Shown here in pieces: positions 4,038-58,301 of a stretch of 64,000 bases of DNA. The notes beneath the pieces were generated by a model. That model saw only the letters and a list, made by a program, of their open reading frames with translations. It ran no database searches and had not been told where the DNA came from. Positions within the stretch are counted from its first letter, which is position 1. Every line of letters begins with the position of its first letter. Made by a program: the position numbers and the translations under genes. The DNA is from Sinorhizobium fredii (GTDB taxonomy: Bacteria; Pseudomonadota; Alphaproteobacteria; Rhizobiales; Rhizobiaceae), in NCBI RefSeq assembly GCF_002944405.1, contig NZ_CP024310.1, positions 558,001-622,000 on the forward strand, written 5' to 3'.

Positions 4038-4164
4038 TCTGCCTCGTCTCGCAGGTCTGTTCGATTTTGAACAGATGCTGTGAGAATTTGCGTCTGTGCC
4101 TGTGCGAGATTTGATGTAACTACAGCGCCATATCGTCAATATGCCGGTCAGGGAGGACATGCAT

Positions 4165-5307
4165 ATGGATTTTCGCCTGTCGGAGGAGCAGGAAGCCATC
4201 CGCGCGATGGCGCTCGATTTCGCCTGCGACGAGCTCGCGCCCCACGCGATCGACTGGGACCAGCAGAAGCATTTTCCGGTGGAGACGCTGCGCGCCGCCG
4301 CCGCCCTCGGCATGGCGGGCATCTATGTCCGCGACGACGTCGGCGGCACGGGGCTCACGCGCCTCGACGCCGCGATGATCATTGAGGCGCTGGCGACCGG
4401 CTGCCCGGCGATCGCCTCCTTCGTATCGATCCACAATATGTGCGCCGGCATGATTGATCGCTACGGGACCGAGGAGCAGCGTCAGCGGCTGCTGCCGCGG
4501 CTGCTCACCATGGAAATCCTGGCGAGCTATTGCCTGACCGAGCCCGGTTCCGGCTCGGACGCGGCGGCGCTGAAGACCAAGGCCGTGCGTGACGGCGACG
4601 CCTACCTGCTCACCGGGCAGAAGCAGTTCATTTCCGGGGCCGGCGAATCCGGCTTCTACATCGTCATGGCGCGCACCGGCGAAGAGGGGCCGAAGGGCAT
4701 TTCCGCCTTCGTCGTCGACAAGGAGACGCCCGGTCTGACCTTTGGCGCCAACGAGAAGAAGATGGGCTGGCACGCCCAGCCGACGCGGGCGGTGATGCTC
4801 GACAACGTCCGCGTTCCGGCCGAGAACCGCCTGGGCGCCGAGGGCCAGGGCTTCAGGATCGCCATGGCAGGGCTCGATGGCGGTCGCCTCAACATCGCCG
4901 CCGCCTCGCTCGGAGGTGCACAGGCCGCCTTCGACAAGGCGCTCGCCTATGTCCAGGAGCGCCGCGCCTTCGGAAGAGCGATCGGCGAATTCCAGGCGCT
5001 GCAGTTTCGCCTCGCCGACATGGCGACCGATCTGGAAATCGCCCGCACCTTCCTCTGGCGTGCGGCCTCGGCCCTCGATTCGGGTGACCCGGAGGCGACC
5101 AAGCTCTGCGCCATGGCCAAACGTTTCGTCACGGATCGCTGCTTTGCTGTCGCCAACGAAGCGCTGCAGCTGCACGGCGGCTACGGCTATCTCGCCGATT
5201 ACGGCGTCGAGAAGATTGTCAGGGACCTAAGGGTGCACCAGATACTCGAAGGAACGAACGAGATCATGCGGCTGATCGTGTCGCGCGCCGTCATGGGACG
5301 GAAATAG
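4165..5307 (+). CDS. Acyl-CoA dehydrogenase, isobutyryl-CoA dehydrogenase type
   Basis: FAD-dependent oxidation of a short branched acyl-CoA, most likely isobutyryl-CoA to methacrylyl-CoA in valine breakdown. The 380-residue protein has the usual N-terminal helical domain, the FAD/substrate motif YCLTEPGSGSDAAALKT, and the C-terminal domain ending LEGTNEIMRLIVSRAVMG, whose Glu is the general base in this family. The start at 4165 (MDFRLSEEQEAIR) lies eight bases after GGGAGG; in-frame ATGs at 4141 and 4159 are too far or too close. It is followed after 12 bases by a 3-hydroxyisobutyryl-CoA hydrolase and then mmsB, which is why I favour isobutyryl-CoA over other short acyl-CoAs. Confidence 0.92.
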   Translation: MDFRLSEEQEAIRAMALDFACDELAPHAIDWDQQKHFPVETLRAAAALGMAGIYVRDDVGGTGLTRLDAAMIIEALATGCPAIASFVSIHNMCAGMIDRYGTEEQRQRLLPRLLTMEILASYCLTEPGSGSDAAALKTKAVRDGDAYLLTGQKQFISGAGESGFYIVMARTGEEGPKGISAFVVDKETPGLTFGANEKKMGWHAQPTRAVMLDNVRVPAENRLGAEGQGFRIAMAGLDGGRLNIAAASLGGAQAAFDKALAYVQERRAFGRAIGEFQALQFRLADMATDLEIARTFLWRAASALDSGDPEATKLCAMAKRFVTDRCFAVANEALQLHGGYGYLADYGVEKIVRDLRVHQILEGTNEIMRLIVSRAVMGRK

Positions 5308-47653: not shown

Positions 47654-48427
47654 CTAATCTCTCAAGGTGACCCACACCGGCGCGTGGTCGCTGGCATTTT
47701 CCCACGCGCGCACGTCCCGGTCGATGCCGGCGCCGGTCAGCCGGCGCCTGAGTTTTCGACTGAGCAGGATGTGATCGAGCCGCAGCCCGGCGTTTCGCTG
47801 CCAACGATTGCGGCGATAGTCCCAGAAGGTGAAAAGCTGCTCGTCCGGGCAGATCTTGCGCAGCGCATCGAGCCACCCCTGCTCGAGCAATTGCCGGAAG
47901 GTGGAGCGGCTTTGCGGCTGGATGAGGGCGTTGTCGTCGTAGGAGCGGGTCGGATATATGTCGCGCGGTTCCGGGACGACATTGTAGTCGCCGGCAAGCA
48001 CGACCGGCAGGCCGGTCTCGAACAGGTCGGCGGCGTGGCTGGCGAGGCGCTGGTGCCAGGCGAGCTTGTAGTCGAATTTCGGGCCCGGCTGCGGATTGCC
48101 GTTCGGGGCGTAGAGCGAGGCGATCAGGATGCCGTTCACGGCCGCCTCGATATACCGGCTCTGCGTGTCGGATGGGTCGCCGGGCAGGTCCGTGCGTGTC
48201 AGGACCGGTTCGCCGTCGCGGGCAAGGATTGCCACGCCGTTCCAAGCCGATTGGCCTCGCCAGACGGCGCCATAGCCTGCGGCCTCGATCGCCTGCTTGG
48301 GAAACTGCCCGTCCGTTGCCTTGAGCTCCTGCAGGCAGACGACATCCGGCTCGGCCGCTGCGAGCCAAGCCAGCAGGTTGTCCAGCCGCTTGTTGACGCC
48401 GTTGATGTTGAAGGTGGCAATCTTCAT
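47654..48427 (-). CDS. xthA: Exodeoxyribonuclease III / AP endonuclease
   Basis: A 257-residue Mg-dependent DNA repair nuclease (EEP fold) that cuts at abasic sites and trims 3' ends. Motifs are FNINGVNKRLDN, CLQELKA with the metal Glu, AGDYNVVPEPRDIY with catalytic Asp/Asn, GLRLDHILLS and the final SDHAPVWV. It follows the alpha/beta hydrolase gene by six bases on the same strand and is downstream of the ku/ligD operon, so the two repair functions may be expressed together. Confidence 0.95.
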   Translation of the reverse strand: MKIATFNINGVNKRLDNLLAWLAAAEPDVVCLQELKATDGQFPKQAIEAAGYGAVWRGQSAWNGVAILARDGEPVLTRTDLPGDPSDTQSRYIEAAVNGILIASLYAPNGNPQPGPKFDYKLAWHQRLASHAADLFETGLPVVLAGDYNVVPEPRDIYPTRSYDDNALIQPQSRSTFRQLLEQGWLDALRKICPDEQLFTFWDYRRNRWQRNAGLRLDHILLSRKLRRRLTGAGIDRDVRAWENASDHAPVWVTLRD

Positions 48428-48433
48428 GCGGGC

Positions 48434-49072
48434 TCAGCGGACCAAGTCGCCGGCCCAGCGCGTGACAGCGTCAGCGAGCGTTTTCAGATGATCGGCCGCG
48501 GAGAAGCCGGAGATGCTCTTGCGCGGTTTCAGGTCATGGTCGCCGTCCTCCAGCCAGAGAACTTCGATCTGGTCGGACAGCGTATAGCCCCGAACCTCTT
48601 CGCGCGTGCCGAACTCGTCGCGGGTTCCCTGGCAGATCAGCGTCGGCGTCTGGAGTCCGGCGAGATGCCTGGTGCGGAGCTGCTCGGGTTTGGCCGGCGG
48701 GTGGAAAGGATAGCCGAGGCAGATGAGCCCCGCGACTTTACCGCCGGCATGAAGCTCGTCGGCGACCATGCTGGCGACGCGTCCGCCCATCGACTTGCCG
48801 CCGATGATAAGCGGGCCCTTCGCGCGGAGTTCGGCGACCGCGGCGCGATATTCCGGATTGAGGGTTTCGGCGCGGGGCGGGGGCTTGCGCTCGCCGGTGC
48901 GCCGCGCCGCCATATAGCCGAATTCGAACCGGACGACGCGGAATCCTGCCTCCGCGAGCGCCCTGGCCGTGGCGCTCATCGAGGCCGAATCCATCGGCGC
49001 GCCGGCGCCGTGGGCAAGAAGAATGGTGACCGACGCGTCCTCCGGTCCGTCGAACAGGAACTTTCCGACCAT
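48434..49072 (-). CDS. Alpha/beta hydrolase (KANL3/Tex30-like)
   Basis: A 212-residue hydrolase with nucleophile elbow GGKSMGGR, an N-terminal LLAHGAGAPMDS, acid residue in QGTRDEFG and histidine in EDGDHDLKPR. The GxSMGGR elbow and short length fit the Tex30/KANL3-like subgroup, whose bacterial substrates are not known. Ninety bases after the BRCT/TPR gene and six bases before xthA, so probably in the same transcript as the repair genes. Confidence 0.85.
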   Translation of the reverse strand: MVGKFLFDGPEDASVTILLAHGAGAPMDSASMSATARALAEAGFRVVRFEFGYMAARRTGERKPPPRAETLNPEYRAAVAELRAKGPLIIGGKSMGGRVASMVADELHAGGKVAGLICLGYPFHPPAKPEQLRTRHLAGLQTPTLICQGTRDEFGTREEVRGYTLSDQIEVLWLEDGDHDLKPRKSISGFSAADHLKTLADAVTRWAGDLVR

Positions 49073-49162: not shown

Positions 49163-50251
49163 TCAGGCGCTGGGCGCCGTCGGGAGAAGGTGAAGGTTCA
49201 CGAACTGCACGCCGCGCTCGGCGGTTCGCGCCCATTCGGAATCCCTGTCGAGTTCGAGATAACGCTTCCACCAACGGCGTGCCTCGCCGAGATCGCCGGC
49301 ATCGAATTCGAGCTTAGCCAGGTTGAAGATCGCATCAGCGTAATTGCCGCCGACGTCGATCGCCTTTTGAAGGTATCTGCGGGCGGTGTCGATGCGGCCG
49401 CGCTCGCCCATGAGCCCGGCGAGGTTGAACCATGCCTCGGCAAAGGAGGGGTCGAGCTTAAGCGCCCGGGCGTAGTCATGCGCGGCATCCAGTTCGCGGC
49501 CGGCAGCCCGAAGGCAGTTGGCGCGGTTGAAGGCGGCGACGGAGTCGGTACGGTCGATGGCGAGGTAACGCTGATAGATGGAGGCTGCTTCGTCATATTC
49601 GCCTTCTTGCTCGGCCTCCTCGGCTTGCGCGAAGAGCTCCTCGAGTTCCGCCTCCTCGACGGCGCCGAGGTCGAGCAGTAACTGCCCATCGAGTTCGCTC
49701 AGGCCCTCGGCCCGCCGGGCATAGATCGTCCGCGGGCCTTCGTGATGGAGCGACAGCGCCGTCAGCGAAGCGACATGGCTGGATCGCTGGACGGAGCGCG
49801 CGATCGTCCCCCAGCCAGCGCCGCTTGAGATCAGTCCGGCATACTTGCGGGCGAGGATCACGTCGCGGAATGAGTAGGGTTCGCTGTCGTGTTCGAAGGC
49901 GTCGAACAGCGACAGCAGGTCGAAGAGGCGAGGCGTGATCTTCGCTTGGTCGATCAGCGATTGCCGCGGCAGCGCTGACGTTTCCGGCGCGGTCGCGAGG
50001 CCCAGGAGCCGAAGGAAGCCGTTTTCGCTGAGCAGGCGCCGTCCGAAGACGGCCTCCCGTTCGAAACGCGCCTCGATGTCCGCATCGGTTGCCTTCAGGA
50101 GTAAGCCGCGGCCGAAGACCACATGGGTAGTTTGCCGGGTGACGCCGCGTCGCAGATGTCCGCCCTGGCGTTCGACCTCCCGTGCGATTAGCCGCCGCGG
50201 ATAAGCGGCGAGCGGCCCGACGATGCCGAATGTCTTGCCGGCGACCGCCAT
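49163..50251 (-). CDS. BRCT / helix-turn-helix / TPR protein coupled to ku
   Basis: A 362-residue cytoplasmic protein with an unusual build. Residues about 5-80 look like a BRCT domain (GKTFGIVGPLAAYPRRLIAR, then RRGVTRQTTHVVFGRGLL). Residues about 115-160 resemble a MerR-type helix-turn-helix (YSFRDVILARKYAGLISSG, GWGTIARSVQRSS). Residues about 205-345 are TPR units (EGEYDEAASIYQRYLAIDRT, LDAAHDYARALKLDPSFAEA, GDLGEARRWWKRYLELDRD). Its ATG shares one base with the ku stop, giving tightly coupled translation. BRCT domains are rare in bacteria outside NAD-dependent DNA ligase, so location behind Ku and LigD suggests a repair accessory role; this is inference. Confidence 0.8.
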   Translation of the reverse strand: MAVAGKTFGIVGPLAAYPRRLIAREVERQGGHLRRGVTRQTTHVVFGRGLLLKATDADIEARFEREAVFGRRLLSENGFLRLLGLATAPETSALPRQSLIDQAKITPRLFDLLSLFDAFEHDSEPYSFRDVILARKYAGLISSGAGWGTIARSVQRSSHVASLTALSLHHEGPRTIYARRAEGLSELDGQLLLDLGAVEEAELEELFAQAEEAEQEGEYDEAASIYQRYLAIDRTDSVAAFNRANCLRAAGRELDAAHDYARALKLDPSFAEAWFNLAGLMGERGRIDTARRYLQKAIDVGGNYADAIFNLAKLEFDAGDLGEARRWWKRYLELDRDSEWARTAERGVQFVNLHLLPTAPSA

Positions 50252-51135
50252 CAGGCCTTCTTCTGTGTGGTCGTCTTCTTTGCCGCGGCGGGTTTGGCGG
50301 CAGCGCTCTTCGCTGCGGGCTTGGCAGTCGGCTCGGTTTTGCTCTTGCTTTTGGCCGGCGGCTTCGTCTGCGACAGGCTCGCCTTCAATGCATCCATCAG
50401 GTTGATGACGTTGCCGCGGTCAGGCGGCGCCGCGATGATCGGCTTATGGCCCTTCAATTTTTCGCGGATCATCTGCATCAGCGCGATCTCGTAGCGATCC
50501 TCGTAGTTCTTCGGATCGAAGGTCGTGGTCTTTTGCTGGATGAGCGCCTCGGCGAGCTGCAGCATTTCCGGGTCGGGACTGCCGACCGGAATGTTGCCGA
50601 AATATTCGGCCGTGCCGCGCACCTCGTTCGGGTTCCTGAGCGTGCAGACGAACATGCCGGTCTCGCGTGGGCCGATAGTGATCACTCGTTCACGGCTCGA
50701 GAGTACCAGGCGGGCGATGGCGAGCTTGCCGCTCCGCCGCAGGGCCTCCCGCAGGACGATGAAGGTCTCCTCGGCCATCGCCCCGTCCGGCGCCAGATAA
50801 TAGGGCGCATCCTGGTAGATCACGTCGACGGAGCCTTCCTCGACGAAGGCCTCGATGTTCATCGTGTGGTTCGATTCGATCCTGACGCTGTCGAGGTCGG
50901 CCTCGTCGATGACGATGTATTTCTTGTCCTCGTATTCGTAGCCCTTCACCAGGTCGGATCGTTCGACAAGGCCAAGCTCCGGATCGACCGGCTTCATGTT
51001 GATCCGGTTGTGGGTATCCTTGTGCAACTGATTGAATGTAATGCGTTCGCTGCTGCTGGTGGCCGGATAAAGCCTAACCGGGCAGCTCACGAGACTGAGT
51101 CTGAGATATCCCTTCCAACTTGCCCTGGGTGCCAT
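50251..51135 (-). CDS. ku: Non-homologous end-joining protein Ku
   Basis: A 294-residue bacterial Ku that forms a homodimeric ring on DNA ends and recruits LigD. The core runs from WKGYLRLSLVSCPVRLYPATS through NRINMKPVD, EYEDKKYIVIDEADLDSV, DVIYQDAPYYLAPDG and FDPKNYEDRYEIALMQMI. The last about 40 residues are Lys/Ala/Pro-rich, like a histone-tail extension that binds DNA. It follows ligD by 25 bases and its stop overlaps the next start. Confidence 0.97.
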   Translation of the reverse strand: MAPRASWKGYLRLSLVSCPVRLYPATSSSERITFNQLHKDTHNRINMKPVDPELGLVERSDLVKGYEYEDKKYIVIDEADLDSVRIESNHTMNIEAFVEEGSVDVIYQDAPYYLAPDGAMAEETFIVLREALRRSGKLAIARLVLSSRERVITIGPRETGMFVCTLRNPNEVRGTAEYFGNIPVGSPDPEMLQLAEALIQQKTTTFDPKNYEDRYEIALMQMIREKLKGHKPIIAAPPDRGNVINLMDALKASLSQTKPPAKSKSKTEPTAKPAAKSAAAKPAAAKKTTTQKKA

Positions 51136-51160
51136 GGTGGTCTCCTACGCGGCACTACGA

Positions 51161-53623
51161 TTACTTTTCCGTCCCGGACTGAGGCGGCAGTTCCCTGGCG
51201 AAGTCGCCGATGTCGGCCCAGGGATCGCCGGATGTGGCCAGAAGGCCTGGCAGCGAAGAATAGTTCAAATCCCCCGGAGCGTCGATAGCTTCGAGATCGG
51301 ACCAACTGAGCGGCGTCGAGGCCGGCAGGTTGGTACGGGCGCGCAGCGAATAGGGTGCGGCCCAGGTATGGCTGCGCGCATTGCGGTGGAAGTCGATGAA
51401 GATGCGCCTTACGCGATTGCCCTTGCCCATGGTGGTGGTGAAGGTCTCCGGCGCGGTCGCCGCCAGGCGGGCGGCGATCGCGCTTGCCGCCTGGTGGAAC
51501 TTCTTCCAGTTAAACTTCGGTCTGACCGGCAGGACGACATGGAGGCCGTTGCCGCCCGAGGTCTTGACGAAGGGGACGAGGCCGACCGCCTCGAGTTCGG
51601 CCTTGATGTGAATGGCCGCTTCGACCACTACCCGCCAGGCGACACCTTCGCCGGGGTCGAGGTCGAAGACCATGCGATCGGGCTTGTCGAGCAGCATGCG
51701 CGTCGTACCCCAATTGTGGAATTCGACGACGCCGAACTGCGCCAGCGCCAGATAGGATTTCGCATCCTCGACGGAAAGATAAGTTCTGGTTTCGCCGTCC
51801 GAGTTGGCGGTTTGGAAGGTCGCGACCGAAGGCGGCATGCCGGTGAAGGGGTGGCGCTGAAAGAAGCAGTCCGCCGTTTTTCCCGTCGGGCAGCGCACCA
51901 GAGAGACGGGTCGGCCGAGGATGTGCGGCAGCATGAAATCGCCGATCATGGCGTAGTAGACGGCGAGGTCGAGCTTGGTCGGGCCGGACTTGCCGAACAG
52001 GCGCCGGGTCGGATTGGTGATCGAGATGCTGGCCAGGTCCGCGTCGGAGATCAGCCGTTTTTGCCGCGGTGAAACTGGCGTCGAGAGGTCGACGTCACGG
52101 AGGCCCCGGAACACCGCATGGCGCAGAATATTGTCGGCTGTTCGATTCCCGTAGTGAATGCGCGCCCTCAATACCGGTCGGACCCAGATGATCTCCTTCG
52201 GAGCACCCTCGAGCTTCGCCGCACCTGCCCTCAGCGGCTCCAGCCGCGCCAGCAATTGTTTCAGCGTTTCGGCGTCAAAGCCGGTTCCGACCTTGCCGCG
52301 ATATTGCAGTTCGCCGTCGACCCATTCGCCGAGCGCGAGCGCGGCAAGGCCTTCGGCGGCTTCCGACATGGTATAGCCGGCGATGACGAAATCTTCCGCC
52401 TTCAGCGCCTTGGTCTTGGTCCAGGTCTTGGAGCGGCCGCTCTGGTAGGGCGCCGAGGCGCGTTTGGAAATGACACCCTCGAGCCCCAGTTCCGAGGCCT
52501 GCTGGTAAAAGGCGCGCCCGTCGCCGATGACGTGATCGCTCAACTGGATGGCGGAGCGGCTCGACAGTTGCGCCGCGAGCACCTGCTTGAGCAGAGCCTT
52601 GCGCTTCTCGAGCGGGACAGCGGCGAGGTTCCAGCCGTCGAGATGCAGAAGATCGAAGGCATAGAACACCAGCCGGTTGCCTGCGCCGGCGGAAAGCGCC
52701 TCCTGAAGGAGCGCAAAACGGCTGATGCCCTCCTCGTCGAGCACGACGATTTCGCCATCGATGACGGCTTCGGGGCACGACAGCCGGCGAAACGCCTCCG
52801 GCAGATCACCGTAGCGTCGCGTCCAGTCGAGGCCGCCGCGGGTGATGAGGCGCACCTCGCCGCTGGATAAGTGCGCCATCGTGCGGTAGCCATCGAACTT
52901 GATCTCATGCAGCCACACCTCGCGCCCGGGGGCACTGTCCGGCGGTGCGGCGGTTGGCATTGCGAGTTGCGGTTCGATGCGTGTCGGCATCGGTGCCTTC
53001 GTCGCGCCGGGAAGAGCGCCCGGCTTGAGCTTCACCGTCTTGGCGGCTGGCGTCGGCTTTTCAACGAGCTCCTCGATCCGCCGCCCCGATTTGACGCTTT
53101 CCGGCCGGGCGGCAAGAATATCGATGGAGGGATCGGCGGCCGGATCGCGTTCCTTGAAGAGAAGCCAGTTGCGATCGTCCTCTTCGCCGGGCCTCGCCTT
53201 CAGCCGCGTCAGCATCCAGCCGCCGTTGAGCTTTTCGCCGGCCAGGCGAAACTTGAAAGCGCCCTTGCGCAGGCTCTCCTCGACATCGTCCATCGGCGCC
53301 CACACACCGGTGTCCCAGACGATCATCGGCCCGGCGCCATATTGGCCCTCCGGAATGACGCCTTCGAAGTCGATATAGTCAATCGGATGGTCCTCGGTCT
53401 CGACCGCCAGGCGCTTGTCGGCCGGGTTGAGCGAGGGGCCCTTGGGGACCGCCCAGCTCTTCAGCACGCCGCCGACTTCGAGCCTCAGATCGTAATGGTC
53501 TGCAGTCGCATGATGCTTGTGCACGACGAAACGGTTGCCGCCGCCGGCCGGGCGCCCGGCCGGCTCCGGCGTCTTCGAAAAATCGCGCTTCTTGCGGTAG
53601 GCCTCAAGCTTCGACGTCGCCAT
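51161..53623 (-). CDS. ligD: ATP-dependent DNA ligase D (phosphoesterase-ligase-polymerase)
   Basis: An 820-residue three-domain end-joining enzyme. Residues about 30-165 are the 3'-phosphoesterase (RFVVHKHHATADHYDLRLEV, EGQYGAGPMIVWD). The ligase domain follows with adenylation motif EIKFDGYR (Lys about 242), GEIVVLDEEG, EGVISKR and an OB part with YRGKVGTGF. The C-terminal about 290 residues are the primase-polymerase domain (VFDLDPGEGV with catalytic aspartates, KTSGGNGLHVV, IDFHRN). Domain order PE-LIG-POL is the Pseudomonas-like order. First gene of the ku operon. Confidence 0.97.
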   Translation of the reverse strand: MATSKLEAYRKKRDFSKTPEPAGRPAGGGNRFVVHKHHATADHYDLRLEVGGVLKSWAVPKGPSLNPADKRLAVETEDHPIDYIDFEGVIPEGQYGAGPMIVWDTGVWAPMDDVEESLRKGAFKFRLAGEKLNGGWMLTRLKARPGEEDDRNWLLFKERDPAADPSIDILAARPESVKSGRRIEELVEKPTPAAKTVKLKPGALPGATKAPMPTRIEPQLAMPTAAPPDSAPGREVWLHEIKFDGYRTMAHLSSGEVRLITRGGLDWTRRYGDLPEAFRRLSCPEAVIDGEIVVLDEEGISRFALLQEALSAGAGNRLVFYAFDLLHLDGWNLAAVPLEKRKALLKQVLAAQLSSRSAIQLSDHVIGDGRAFYQQASELGLEGVISKRASAPYQSGRSKTWTKTKALKAEDFVIAGYTMSEAAEGLAALALGEWVDGELQYRGKVGTGFDAETLKQLLARLEPLRAGAAKLEGAPKEIIWVRPVLRARIHYGNRTADNILRHAVFRGLRDVDLSTPVSPRQKRLISDADLASISITNPTRRLFGKSGPTKLDLAVYYAMIGDFMLPHILGRPVSLVRCPTGKTADCFFQRHPFTGMPPSVATFQTANSDGETRTYLSVEDAKSYLALAQFGVVEFHNWGTTRMLLDKPDRMVFDLDPGEGVAWRVVVEAAIHIKAELEAVGLVPFVKTSGGNGLHVVLPVRPKFNWKKFHQAASAIAARLAATAPETFTTTMGKGNRVRRIFIDFHRNARSHTWAAPYSLRARTNLPASTPLSWSDLEAIDAPGDLNYSSLPGLLATSGDPWADIGDFARELPPQSGTEK

Positions 53624-53708
53624 GCGACCAAGCTATGGCTTATCCATCGAACCCGCAATATCGGCTGACGCGAGCCGCAACGAAGTGCCCCGGCTCGCGT
53701 GGCTCAGC

Positions 53709-54545
53709 TCAAGCGCACCGACCCGGCGTGCCGAGCGCCATATGGCGGTTGACGTCCTTGTAGAGCAGATAACGGAACTTGCCCGGACCGCCGGCATAGC
53801 AGGCCTGCGGGCAGAAGGCCCTGAGCCACATATAGTCGCCGGCTTCGACCTCGACCCAATCGGCGTTGAGGCGGTAGACCGCCTTGCCCTCGAGAACGTA
53901 GAGGCCGTGTTCCATCACATGGGTCTCCATGAAGGGAATGACGCCGCCCGGCTCGAAAGTGACGATCGTCACATGCATGTCGTGGCGCATGTCGGACGGA
54001 TCGACGAAGCGGGTCGTCGCCCAGCGGCCGTCCGTATCGGGCATCGGCGTCGGGGTGATTTCACGTTCGTTGGTGACGATCGGTTCGGGGAGAGGGATTC
54101 CATCGACCTTTTCGTAGGCTTTGCGGAACCAGTGGAATCGGGCCGGCGTGGAACCGTCATTGTGGAGGCTCCAGTCGGCGCCGGGCGGGATGAAGGCGTA
54201 GCCGCCGGGCTGCATCCGGTGGGTCTCACCGCCGATCGTCAGCCGGAACTCGCCGTCGACCACGAACAACACGGCTTCTGCGCGCGGATCGCTTTCAGGT
54301 TGGTCGCTTCCCCCAGAAGGCCCGACCTCCATGATGTATTGCGAGAATGTTTCGGCGAAGCCTGACAGAGGACGCGAGAGGACCCACAGACGGGTATTCG
54401 TCCAATGCGGCAGGTAGCTGGTGACGATGTCGCGCATCACCCCCTTCGGAATGATCGCATAGGCTTCGGTGAACACCGCCCGATCCGTCAGCAGGTTCGT
54501 TTGCGGCGGATGCCCGCCTTCGGGGAAATAGTAGTTGCTCTTCAT
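53709..54545 (-). CDS. allE: (S)-ureidoglycine aminohydrolase
   Basis: A 278-residue bicupin Mn enzyme that converts ureidoglycine to ureidoglycolate and ammonia in allantoin breakdown. The N-terminus YYFPEGGHPPQTNLLTDRAVFTE, the first cupin MQPGGYAFIPPGADWSLHN and the second cupin GGVIPFMETHVMEHGLYVLEGKAVY with metal ligands Glu/His are typical of AllE. It follows the IclR regulator on the same strand and is near allA, gcl and hyi, which act downstream. Confidence 0.93.
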   Translation of the reverse strand: MKSNYYFPEGGHPPQTNLLTDRAVFTEAYAIIPKGVMRDIVTSYLPHWTNTRLWVLSRPLSGFAETFSQYIMEVGPSGGSDQPESDPRAEAVLFVVDGEFRLTIGGETHRMQPGGYAFIPPGADWSLHNDGSTPARFHWFRKAYEKVDGIPLPEPIVTNEREITPTPMPDTDGRWATTRFVDPSDMRHDMHVTIVTFEPGGVIPFMETHVMEHGLYVLEGKAVYRLNADWVEVEAGDYMWLRAFCPQACYAGGPGKFRYLLYKDVNRHMALGTPGRCA

Positions 54546-54643
54546 CTTTCTCGCCTATCGGGGTGGCTGGTGAGCCGGGCTCTGCCGATCCCGGCGGTGG
54601 TAAATCGCTGTGGCGCCGTTTGTCGGCAGGCCAGGGGGTTTTA

Positions 54644-55465
54644 CTAGCGCTCCTCCGGTCTGTGCCCGCCGATGGCGTGCGTCAACGCGTCGGCTGTCCG
54701 GCGGACGACAGGCCCGATGATCGTGAGCTTGGCGTCGTCGATGCGGACCGTGGGGCCGGAGATCGAGATGCCGCCGATCGCCTCGCCATATTCGTTGAAG
54801 ACGGGCGCCGCGATGCAGCGCATGCCAAGCGTATGCTCCTCGTCGTCGATCGACCAGCCGCGAAAGCGGATCTCCGTGATATCGGCGAGGAGCGCCGGGA
54901 GCGTATCGAGTGTGCGCTCGGTGAAGTGCGCAAGCGTTCTGCCGTTAAGTGCCTTGGCGATCTCGGTGTCCGACCATGTGGCGAGGATCGCCTTGCCGAT
55001 ACCGGATGCATGGATCGGCCCGCGGCGGCCGGGGCGGAAGAAGGCGCGCATCGGCGCGTGGCTCTCGACCTGGGATATGAAAACCACGTCGCCGTCGTCC
55101 TCGATGCCGATATTGGCCGTCTCGCCGCTCTTCTCCATCAGTTGCTTCAGGAAGGGCCGGCTGATCGTGCCGAGCTTGCGGAAGCGCAGGAAAGCATTGC
55201 CGATCTCGAAGGCCTTGACGCCGACGGTCCAGGTGCCGGTGTCGCCGTCGTTCGTCACCATGCCGTGACTGGCAAGCGAACTGAGCAGCCGGTGCACCGT
55301 CGAGGGCGCCATGCCGGTCCGCTCCGAGAGAGAAGTCAGGGTCGAGCCGTCACCCTCGGCGACGATGGCAAGCAGCGACAGGCTCCGGTCCAGAACCTGG
55401 ACGGAGGAGGGGGCGGCATTCTCTGCCGCCTTGCGCCCGCGCTTGCCTTTGACTGTCGACTCCAT
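54644..55465 (-). CDS. IclR-family transcriptional regulator of the glyoxylate/allantoin genes
   Basis: A 273-residue regulator. The N-terminal winged helix (residues about 20-85) has [38 protein letters not shown]; the C-terminal effector domain has [41 protein letters not shown]. The start at 55465 follows GGAG by eight bases; a start at 55528 is possible. Divergent from gcl with an IclR-type palindrome between. Similar in placement and sequence to AllR-type regulators that sense glyoxylate/allantoin; effector not shown. Confidence 0.9.
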
Positions 55466-55557
55466 CAGTCCGACTCCAAATCGCTTCTCATCATCATGCT
55501 CTATCGCGATTGCGTCTGATTTTCTCATATTTGTTGAAGATGTTTATTTCCACATGA

Positions 55558-55572
55558 TGGGAATGATTTCCA
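55558..55572. promoter_or_regulatory. IclR-type operator between regulator and gcl
   Basis: TGGGAATGATTTCCA differs at one base from TGGAAATNATTTCCA, the E. coli IclR-family palindrome as I recall it. It lies 60 bases before the gcl start and about 93 bases before the regulator start, in position to repress both. Confidence 0.72.
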
Positions 55573-55631
55573 TAAATTTGTTGATCGCCGCGGCATATGG
55601 GTTAGCATCCCACTCAACAGGAGGAGTTCCC

Positions 55632-57416
55632 ATGGCCAAGATGCGTGCTGTCGATGCAGCGGTTCATGTTCTGGAAAAGGAGGGGATCGATTGTGCCTTC
55701 GGGGTCCCGGGGGCGGCGATCAATCCGCTCTATTCGGCGCTCAAAGCGCGCGGATCGATCCGCCATATTCTCGCCCGTCACGTCGAAGGCGCCTCCCACA
55801 TGGCCGAGGGCTACACGCGGGCAAAGCACGGCAATATCGGCGTCTGCATTGGCACGTCCGGCCCGGCCGGCACCGACATGATTACCGGCCTCTACTCGGC
55901 CTCGGCCGATTCGATCCCGATCCTCTGCATCACGGGACAGGCGCCGCGGGCGCGTCTCGACAAGGAGGATTTCCAGGCAGTCGACATCGCCAAGATCGCG
56001 GCGCCCGTCGCCAAGTGGGCGGTCACGGTCATGGAGCCGGCGCTCGTTCCCTTCGTCTTCCAGAAGGCGTTCCATCTGATGCGCTCCGGCCGTCCCGGTC
56101 CGGTTCTGATCGACCTGCCGGTCGACGTCCAGCTTGCCGAGATCGAGTTCGATCCGGAGACCTATGAGCCGCTCGCGCCCTACAAGCCGGCCGCGACGCG
56201 CGTCCAGGCCGAAAAAGCGCTTGCCATGCTGAACGCGGCGGAACGGCCGCTGATCGTCGCCGGCGGCGGCATCATCAATGCGGATGCGTCGGACCTCCTC
56301 ACCGAATTTGCCGAGATCACCGGCGTTCCGGTCATCCCGACGCTGATGGGTTGGGGCGCGATCCCCGACGACCACCCGTTGATGGCCGGCATGTGCGGTC
56401 TGCAGACCTCGCATCGCTACGGCAACGCGACGCTGCTTGCCTCGGATTTCGTCTTCGGCATTGGCAACCGCTGGGCCAACCGCCACACCGGTAACGTCCC
56501 GATCTATACGGAAGGACGCAAGTTTATCCATGTCGATATCGAGCCGACGCAGATCGGCCGCGTCTTCGCGCCGGATTTCGGCATCGTCTCGGATGCAGGC
56601 GCCGCCCTCAAACTCTTCCTCGACGTTGCGACCGAATGGAAGACTGCCGGCAAGTTGCGAGACTGGTCTGCCTGGGCGGCCGAATGCCGCGAACGCAAGC
56701 GCACCATGCTGCGCAAGACCCATTACGACCAGACGCCACTGAAGCCCCAGCGCGTCTACGAGGAGATGAACAAGGCCTTCGGCCGTAAGACCTGCTACGT
56801 CTCGACCATCGGCTTGAGCCAGATCGCCGGGGCGCAGTTCCTGCATGTCTACAGACCGCGCAATTGGATCAACTGCGGTCAGGCGGGTCCGCTCGGCTGG
56901 ACGCTGCCGGCAGCGCTCGGCGTCCGCGCCGCGGACCCAAACCGCCCGATCGTCGCGCTTTCGGGCGACTACGATTTCCAGTTTCTGATCGAGGAACTCG
57001 CGGTCGGGGCGCAGCACAAGCTCCCCTACCTGCATGTCGTCGTCAACAACTCCTATCTCGGCCTGATCCGTCAGGCCCAGCGCGGCTTCGACATGGACTT
57101 CGAGGTAAGCCTCGCCTTCGACAACATCAATGCCAACGGCGACGCCGAGAAGGGTTACGGCGTCGATCACGTGGCCGTCGCCGAAGGCCTCGGCTGCAAG
57201 GCGATCCGCGTCAGGAACCCCAATGAGTTCGCCGATGCCTTCGAACGGGCGCAGGCGCTGATGGAGGAACACCAGGTGCCGGTCGTCATCGAATTCATCC
57301 TCGAGCGCGTCACCAACATCGCCATGGGCGCCGACATCAATGCGGTCGTCGAGTTCGAGGAGCTTGCCGAACGCGGCGAGGACGCGCCGACCGCAATCGC
57401 CGCCCTGCTCGATTGA
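55632..57416 (+). CDS. gcl: Glyoxylate carboligase (tartronate-semialdehyde synthase)
   Basis: Condenses two glyoxylate molecules to tartronate semialdehyde with release of CO2, using thiamine diphosphate. The 594 residues and motifs are standard: [16 protein letters not shown] with the family-specific Val at residue 51 where most ThDP enzymes have Glu, [16 protein letters not shown], a central FAD-binding part with [11 protein letters not shown], and the ThDP motif [12 protein letters not shown]...[18 protein letters not shown] lies before the ATG at 55632. First gene of gcl-hyi-glxR-glycerate kinase-allA. Confidence 0.97.
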
Positions 57417-57485
57417 AACCATCAACAGCAGGATGAGGGAGGTCTTCCGGCCGCATCCTGCTTCCCCTTCCAGAGGAGTAACCGC

Positions 57486-58301
57486 ATGCCGAGATTTGCG
57501 GCAAACCTGACCATGCTGTTCAATGAGGCGCCGTTCCTCGACCGCTTCGCACTTGCCGCCAAGGCTGGCTTCGAAGGCGTGGAATATCTGTTTCCCTATG
57601 AATTCGAGAAAATAGCCTTGCGCAGCGCTCTCGATCGCTACGGACTGACGCAGGTTCTTCACAACCTTCCCGCCGGCGACTGGGCGCGCGGCGAACGCGG
57701 CATCGCCATCCTGCCGGATCGGATCGACGAATTCCGCAGGGGTGTCGCAACCGCCATCGATTATGCGATGGCGCTCGATTGCAAGCAGGTCAATTGCCTC
57801 GTCGGCATCGCGCCGGACGGAGTGCCGGACCGCGTGCTGCGCACGACCCTTGTTGCCAATCTGAGGCTCGCGGCGAGCGAACTCGGCAAGCATGGCATCC
57901 GCCTGCTGATCGAACCGATCAACCGCTTCGACATTCCCGGCTTTTATCTCAATACGGTTGGGCAGGCGGCCGCGATCATCGAGGAGGTCGGCAGCGATAA
58001 CCTGTTCATACAGTGCGACCTTTACCACCAGCAGCGGACCGAGGGCGAACTGATCGGCACCTATAAGCGCTATTCGGACCGGATTGCGCATGTCCAGCTC
58101 GCCGACAATCCGGGCCGCAACGAGCCGGGCACCGGCGAGATTAACTACCCCTTCGTTTTCGATGCGCTGGAAGCCGCCGGCTACGAGGGCTGGATCGGTT
58201 GCGAATACAAGCCGCGCACGACCACGACGGAGGGGCTCGGCTGGCTCGGGGCCGAGCGCAAGCGCAACCGATCCGCAGACATCATCAAGATCAGGAGCTA
58301 A
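57486..58301 (+). CDS. hyi: Hydroxypyruvate isomerase
   Basis: A 271-residue TIM-barrel enzyme that interconverts tartronate semialdehyde and hydroxypyruvate. ANLTMLFNEAPFLDRFALAAKAGFEGVEYLFPYE at the start (first part) is typical; metal ligands are in LIEPINRFDIPGFYLN, QCDLYHQQRTEGE, HVQLADNPGRNEPGTGEINY and the final IGCEYKP. AGAGGAGTA precedes the ATG. Second gene of the glyoxylate run. Confidence 0.95.
   Translation: MPRFAANLTMLFNEAPFLDRFALAAKAGFEGVEYLFPYEFEKIALRSALDRYGLTQVLHNLPAGDWARGERGIAILPDRIDEFRRGVATAIDYAMALDCKQVNCLVGIAPDGVPDRVLRTTLVANLRLAASELGKHGIRLLIEPINRFDIPGFYLNTVGQAAAIIEEVGSDNLFIQCDLYHQQRTEGELIGTYKRYSDRIAHVQLADNPGRNEPGTGEINYPFVFDALEAAGYEGWIGCEYKPRTTTTEGLGWLGAERKRNRSADIIKIRS

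Follow-up and report, generated by a model that had tools for sequence, protein, structure and literature searches.

Bacterial non-homologous end joining (NHEJ) is usually portrayed as a two-protein system made up of Ku and LigD. Among the eukaryotic end-joining factors, ligase IV has tandem BRCT domains, and XRCC4, XLF and PAXX have coiled-coil folds. Here, we analysed a window of 64,000 nucleotides (nt) of Sinorhizobium fredii (the whole stretch of DNA under study; contig NZ_CP024310.1, positions 558,001 to 622,000), in which ligD and ku are followed by a third gene, BT, whose product joins a BRCT domain, a MerR-type winged helix-turn-helix (HTH) and a superhelix of tetratricopeptide repeats (TPRs). 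By Pfam and NCBIfam, LigD and Ku are ordinary members of their families, and BT is strongly placed as a candidate third component, so far undescribed, of the Ku-LigD repair machine. A Sir2-like accessory of mycobacterial NHEJ has been reported (PMC3102665). We found no description of a gene such as BT in the literature searched, where an earlier mention in Sinorhizobium NHEJ papers is possible, and at keyword level BRCT is unmentioned in PMC7719229, PMC8656161 and PMC1378119. The annotated Sinorhizobium plasmid records examined label the gene only as 'tetratricopeptide repeat protein', so that it is easily overlooked.

Linkage of BT to ku

The three genes lie on the minus strand of the window in the order ligD (51161 to 53623; 820 amino acids, phosphoesterase-ligase-polymerase by Pfam and NCBIfam), ku (50251 to 51135; 294 amino acids, with a basic C-terminal tail of 44 residues and net charge +11) and BT (49163 to 50251; 362 amino acids). 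The ku TGA and the BT ATG share base 50251 within a TGATG (50249 to 50253; catca on the plus strand), which confirms the original prediction that BT begins within the ku stop codon. Its description as translationally fused to ku holds in that the frames overlap by 1 nt and coupling is likely, and fails in that there is no protein fusion. BT is present in one copy in its own genome, where five ku matches occur, and its closest named relatives belong to Sinorhizobium/Ensifer.

A scan of genome contigs gave 153 relatives, of which the best 80 were examined as loci; this set and the further sets of 35, 12 and 20 loci share some genomes. In all 80 loci ku was found directly 5' of BT on the same strand, and it adjoined BT in 35/35 whole-genome loci (identity down to about 30%), in 12/12 loci L136-L147 (down to about 27%) and in 20/20 further loci; homologues lying mostly apart from ku would have refuted the original proposal, and these are found with it. 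With start codons as picked by our script, BT overlapped the ku stop codon by 1 nt in 28 of the 80 loci, by 4 nt in 36 and by more in one, and began 6-25 nt past it in the remaining 15. Translational coupling would thus probably allow BT to be made in step with Ku.

The position of ligD was more variable. It was present in 76 of the 80 loci, three of the misses being at contig ends (L080, L088 and L104); L100 contained ku and BT with no ligD within its 16.6-kb locus. In most loci ligD preceded ku, in L134, L135, L141 and L142 it followed BT, near L140 it was not found (region L278), and L144 and L145 had only a weak partial ligase match on the opposite strand. In every one of these seven loci BT lay behind ku, whatever the position of ligD. 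It is hence ku, not ligD, that BT accompanies, and the ku-BT pair is carried by pSymB in S. meliloti and is chromosomal in Mesorhizobium.

This partnership is constant in one direction only: the presence of BT predicts ku, but the presence of ku does not predict BT. In a phylum sample, ku was detected in 61 of 299 genomes, and BT was found in 9 of the 13 ku genomes of its own family.

Domain architecture of BT

The BRCT domain occupies residues 1-87 (49991 to 50251). In the AlphaFold2 (AF2) model of BT, strands at residues 7-11, 32-34, 43-46 and 72-75 and helices at 19-28, 56-68 and 76-82 follow the b1-a1-b2-b3-a2-b4-a3 order of the BRCT fold. With the single BT sequence, Pfam gave BRCT matches below the cut-off (PTCB-BRCT, E 0.002; BRCT, 0.035) and MerR was not among the 25 families listed; at E 1, PTCB-BRCT was matched by 9 and BRCT by 3 of 33 relatives (best 0.0013). 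Since Pfam searches with one sequence missed MerR and were too weak to call BRCT, family profiles were needed. We compared a profile built from 25 diverse relatives (A6) with the Protein Data Bank (PDB), and its top seven matches were all BRCT chains. The best were ligase A (9vse, 1.5e-7) and RFC1 (2ebu, 7.2e-7), followed by other ligase A and RFC1 chains to 0.0015, XRCC1 (0.014) and Rad4 (0.024); from 0.14 onwards, centrins and a tRNA synthetase appeared. The narrower profile A4 (33 rows) gave weak matches to RFC1 (0.048 and 0.092), ligase A (0.9) and a non-BRCT protein, ATP phosphoribosyltransferase (0.81). Aligned by hhalign with 17 ligase A BRCTs (A7; seven ligase A frames scanned, ten more assigned by eye), the BT BRCT profile reached a probability of 98.4 (E 5.5e-15), and 0.1% with MerR-type sequences as a control. 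When the N-terminal model was searched alone, those of the 50 matches listed that began at residue 1 or 2 were BRCT-bearing chains. Family profiles and predicted structure therefore both bear out the BRCT-like N-terminus that had been called by eye.

The proposed likeness to the BRCTs of ligase IV and PTIP was not supported, as the nearest relatives are the single BRCTs of ligase A and RFC1; ligase IV, XRCC4, XLF and PAXX were absent among the matches listed for the A6 and N-terminal fold searches. BT shares with these single BRCTs the b-a-b-b-a-b-a order, the glycine turns and an Arg in alpha-1, but unlike them its BRCT forms the N-terminal part of an HTH-TPR protein encoded in a ku operon. 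Residues and charges were compared in 80 sequences (the window and 79 loci, L065 being omitted for its odd length). In this set the BRCT has a median net charge of +7, with R20, R24, R39 and R81 invariant. In L065 (8001-9725), the homologue frame extends to 575 amino acids but its match stops at residue 333, which may reflect a frameshift near its end.

The MerR-type winged HTH spans residues 88-160 approximately (49772 to 49990), and here too family profiles and predicted structure agree with the original call. The HTH region of 19 BT relatives (A8) aligned with that of four BRCT-less relatives (A9, described below) at a probability of 97.3 (E 1.7e-11), compared to 0.1% for A8 against the ligase A BRCT; A9 had no match in the PDB at E 0.1. 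Pfam MerR_1 was at the cut-off in the BRCT-less L166 (21.6 bits), weak in L141 (0.0092) and unlisted in the other six of eight proteins scanned. The long dimerisation helix that follows the HTH in MerR regulators was not found in the AF2 model, where a helix at 147-156 is followed by another at 160-165 and by strands. In this BT differs from Tn501 MerR, TnrA and GlnR: the HTH is followed by a beta-hairpin linker (residues 161-198; 49658 to 49771) and then by the TPRs. The linker has a conserved ELDGQ-LL motif in which G189 and Q190 are invariant (alignment A5), the GQ being present in the BRCT-less relatives as well; residues 189-198 are modelled at low confidence by the predicted local distance difference test (pLDDT). 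One ku-linked shorter member (L147, 1460-2143) has BRCT and TPR without the HTH, possibly through an assembly fault.

The TPR superhelix (residues 199-357; 49181 to 49657) is clear even in the single sequence (Pfam E 1.4e-16), with its 34-residue helix-turn-helix repeats, and fold comparison supports the original TPR assignment: the whole model returned TPR matches only, those of OGT and LGN among the nearest. The TPRs of OGT and LGN bind peptides, and an Asn ladder there grips extended peptides. In BT, N242, N245, N276 and N310 form such a ladder and are kept in 80/80 sequences, and the median net charge of the TPR part is -11. The likeness to OGT and LGN covers about 160 aligned residues only, and BT differs from both in that its TPRs are joined to DNA-type domains. 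The charges and the invariant Arg and Asn residues suggest that the TPRs may contact the Ku tail and that the BRCT may contact DNA.

Distribution, wider relatives and trees

A related protein without BRCT was found in another class. In genome G1288, L166 encodes a MerR-HTH/TPR protein between ku and ligD, and this HTH-TPR form occurs at two of the three ku genes of that genome. The whole L166 protein matched 45 plasmid records, and its N-terminal 138 residues matched 22 of these, from Paraburkholderia, Cupriavidus, Caballeronia, Variovorax and Burkholderia (Burkholderiales). The BRCT-less relative lies behind ku in 22/22 records, in 20 by coordinates, in H78 by annotation and in H84 presumably across the record origin. 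No BT match was found in phages.

In a Ku tree of 114 sequences built by a quick method, 27 of the 34 BT-linked Ku proteins formed one clade (Shimodaira-Hasegawa-like approximate likelihood ratio test, SH-aLRT, 99), and the other seven were scattered in a neighbouring group; long branches meet there (L142, L144 and L145), and these seven may be misplaced. The tree required 5 label changes, compared to a mean of 33.4 in shuffles, a difference to which near-copies contribute. The topology fits an old association of BT with Ku, with some losses. Distances in the Ku and BT trees were correlated over 40 loci (r 0.88), and none of 999 permutations gave a value as high.

In one whole-genome profile set, 36 of 37 matches had an adjacent ku and the last was a BRCT-only protein, L283. 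In this 316-residue protein (genome G280; 4111-5058, minus strand), a C-terminal BRCT exceeds the Pfam cut-off and is the one Pfam family matched at 0.001, and no ku was found in its 8.3-kb region. Seven ku-less ligase-like frames were rejected as BT relatives, all seven scanned being the NAD-dependent ligase A, as were ten more assigned to ligase A by eye. The weak matches L148, L149 and L157 were likewise rejected; they are exonucleases of the DnaQ type whose C-terminal part resembles a BRCT, with a Pfam match to BRCT in L149 and L157. Like BT, the latter are bacterial proteins with a BRCT outside ligase A; unlike BT, they carry a nuclease instead of HTH-TPR, and no ku was found in the loci examined. 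Since our profile also matched such proteins, the rarity originally claimed for bacterial BRCTs outside ligase A is not upheld. These assignments cover the weak matches other than L153, L174, 12 places in one scan (one of which, in G771, was covered as L155) and one in another; a weak second match in G005 had nothing in its region, L284.

Discussion

The original proposal of a candidate new NHEJ component is well supported by the genomics, as the domains are real and the homologues adjoin ku; its further suggestion that BT could scaffold Ku and LigD is conjectural. We marginally favour the view that BT serves one lineage of proteobacterial Ku-LigD end joining as a dedicated accessory protein, acting as an adaptor at Ku-bound ends. 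Most likely, the acidic TPR superhelix with its Asn ladder would grip an extended peptide, for which the lysine-rich C-terminal tail of Ku is the best candidate, and the arginine-rich BRCT and the winged HTH would touch DNA or another repair protein. The outcome could be a stabilised end complex or the recruitment of processing enzymes, with the ExoIII-like nuclease from the gene cluster as an example.

Several observations weigh against this view. Outside its own family, only one of the 47 ku genomes examined (G1288) had BT or its BRCT-less relative; these are 47 of 48 such genomes, with 66 regions, G1138 and one partial ku match in G512 being left out and L211 ending short of ku. Four further ku genes of its own genome have no BT neighbour (loci L290 and L291, G000:C4:1342973-1347395 and G000:C3:34092-35531). 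Because most sampled ku genomes lack BT, it is not essential to bacterial NHEJ at large. The matching Ku and BT trees would also arise from operon co-inheritance alone. The 5'-phosphate pocket of the RFC1 BRCT consists of T-G, R and K, whose counterparts in BT we take to be position 11, R19 and the GSK region. Position 11, the Thr of TG, is V/I in 33/33 rows of A4, R19 is replaced by L in 42/80 sequences, and the GSK region is a gap in the BT-ligase A alignment. The pocket was hence not found in BT, and a reading of 5'-phosphates in the RFC1 manner is doubtful; this concerns the RFC1 binding mode and is separate from the BRCT fold itself. Finally, MerR-type HTHs are commoner in transcription regulators.

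A wider claim, which we put forward only tentatively, is that a whole proteobacterial lineage has a three-component NHEJ, in which BT would be a core factor with its TPRs on Ku and its BRCT and HTH on DNA or the second end, a counterpart of the XRCC4/XLF/PAXX layer made of unrelated domains.

The MerR fold could also mean that BT is an operon-specific regulator, its HTH acting on the ligD promoter and its TPRs and BRCT sensing a signal, for instance free Ku or broken DNA. A conserved promoter-like element, TATTGC(A/G)G-N15-CATAGC, lies just upstream of ligD (53632 to 53660, minus strand), and the BT operon is the one place in the genome that matches it exactly, which the regulator reading also draws on. 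However, this element looks by eye like a core promoter rather than a dyad; it stops 8 nt short of the ligD start codon, the ligD mRNA may be leaderless, and no dyad operator was seen by eye upstream of ligD. Moreover, the element cannot readily be seen in the majority of the aligned rows from Mesorhizobium, Chelativorans and Devosia, the model has no long dimerisation helix behind the HTH, the ku-linked L147 does without the HTH unless its assembly is faulty, and coupling to ku would equalise the amounts of the two proteins, which would be unusual for a regulator. We therefore regard a regulatory role as rather unlikely.

BT might instead recruit or regulate end-processing partners and not act on Ku. 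Behind BT, on the same strand of the window, lie an alpha/beta hydrolase gene (48434 to 49072; PF20408) and an ExoIII-like gene of the endonuclease/exonuclease/phosphatase family (47654 to 48427; PF03372), annotated as xth in S. meliloti. Of the 80 loci, 76 had the hydrolase gene behind BT within 1 kb on the same strand and 75 had the ExoIII-like gene within 1.8 kb, with the order of the two kept in 75; all misses were at contig ends, and both genes were present in 20/20 further loci. The Rhizobiales thus have a five-gene end-joining cluster, and the constancy of its order from ku to xth argues for processing partners. In distant Alphaproteobacteria, however, BT is still with ku where no hydrolase gene or xth was detected next to it (L273 and L275-L280; both genes are present at L274 and L281, and the hydrolase gene alone at L282), and in Mesorhizobium the spacing between BT and the hydrolase gene is loose, up to 935 nt, which together make this explanation improbable.

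That BT is a bystander carried along with ku by history, with no role in end joining, would equally yield congruent trees, but is highly improbable given that the ku-BT adjacency holds at about 27% identity, across changes in ligD order and on both pSymB and chromosomes, and that a related MerR-HTH/TPR gene lies behind ku in another class.

Upstream of ligD, positions 53709-58301 of the window hold a set of genes resembling purine/glyoxylate catabolism: a two-cupin protein (Pfam) and, by eye, an IclR-type regulator, a carboligase-like protein and a hydroxypyruvate isomerase-like protein.

If BT is indeed a dedicated accessory protein, a third, BRCT-bearing protein co-inherited with ku over the Alphaproteobacteria would revise the two-protein picture, and the BRCT-less relative behind ku in the Burkholderiales would widen the same change. 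It would become testable why Ku and LigD alone do not suffice in these bacteria, and the answer might bear on rhizobial stress survival and the uptake of foreign DNA. Compared to the two-component systems, the locus has the same ordinary Ku and three-domain LigD, but is extended by a third, conserved gene and, in the Rhizobiales, by a fourth and a fifth. With the eukaryotic ligase IV-XRCC4, XLF and PAXX, it shares the notion of an extra factor besides Ku and the ligase.

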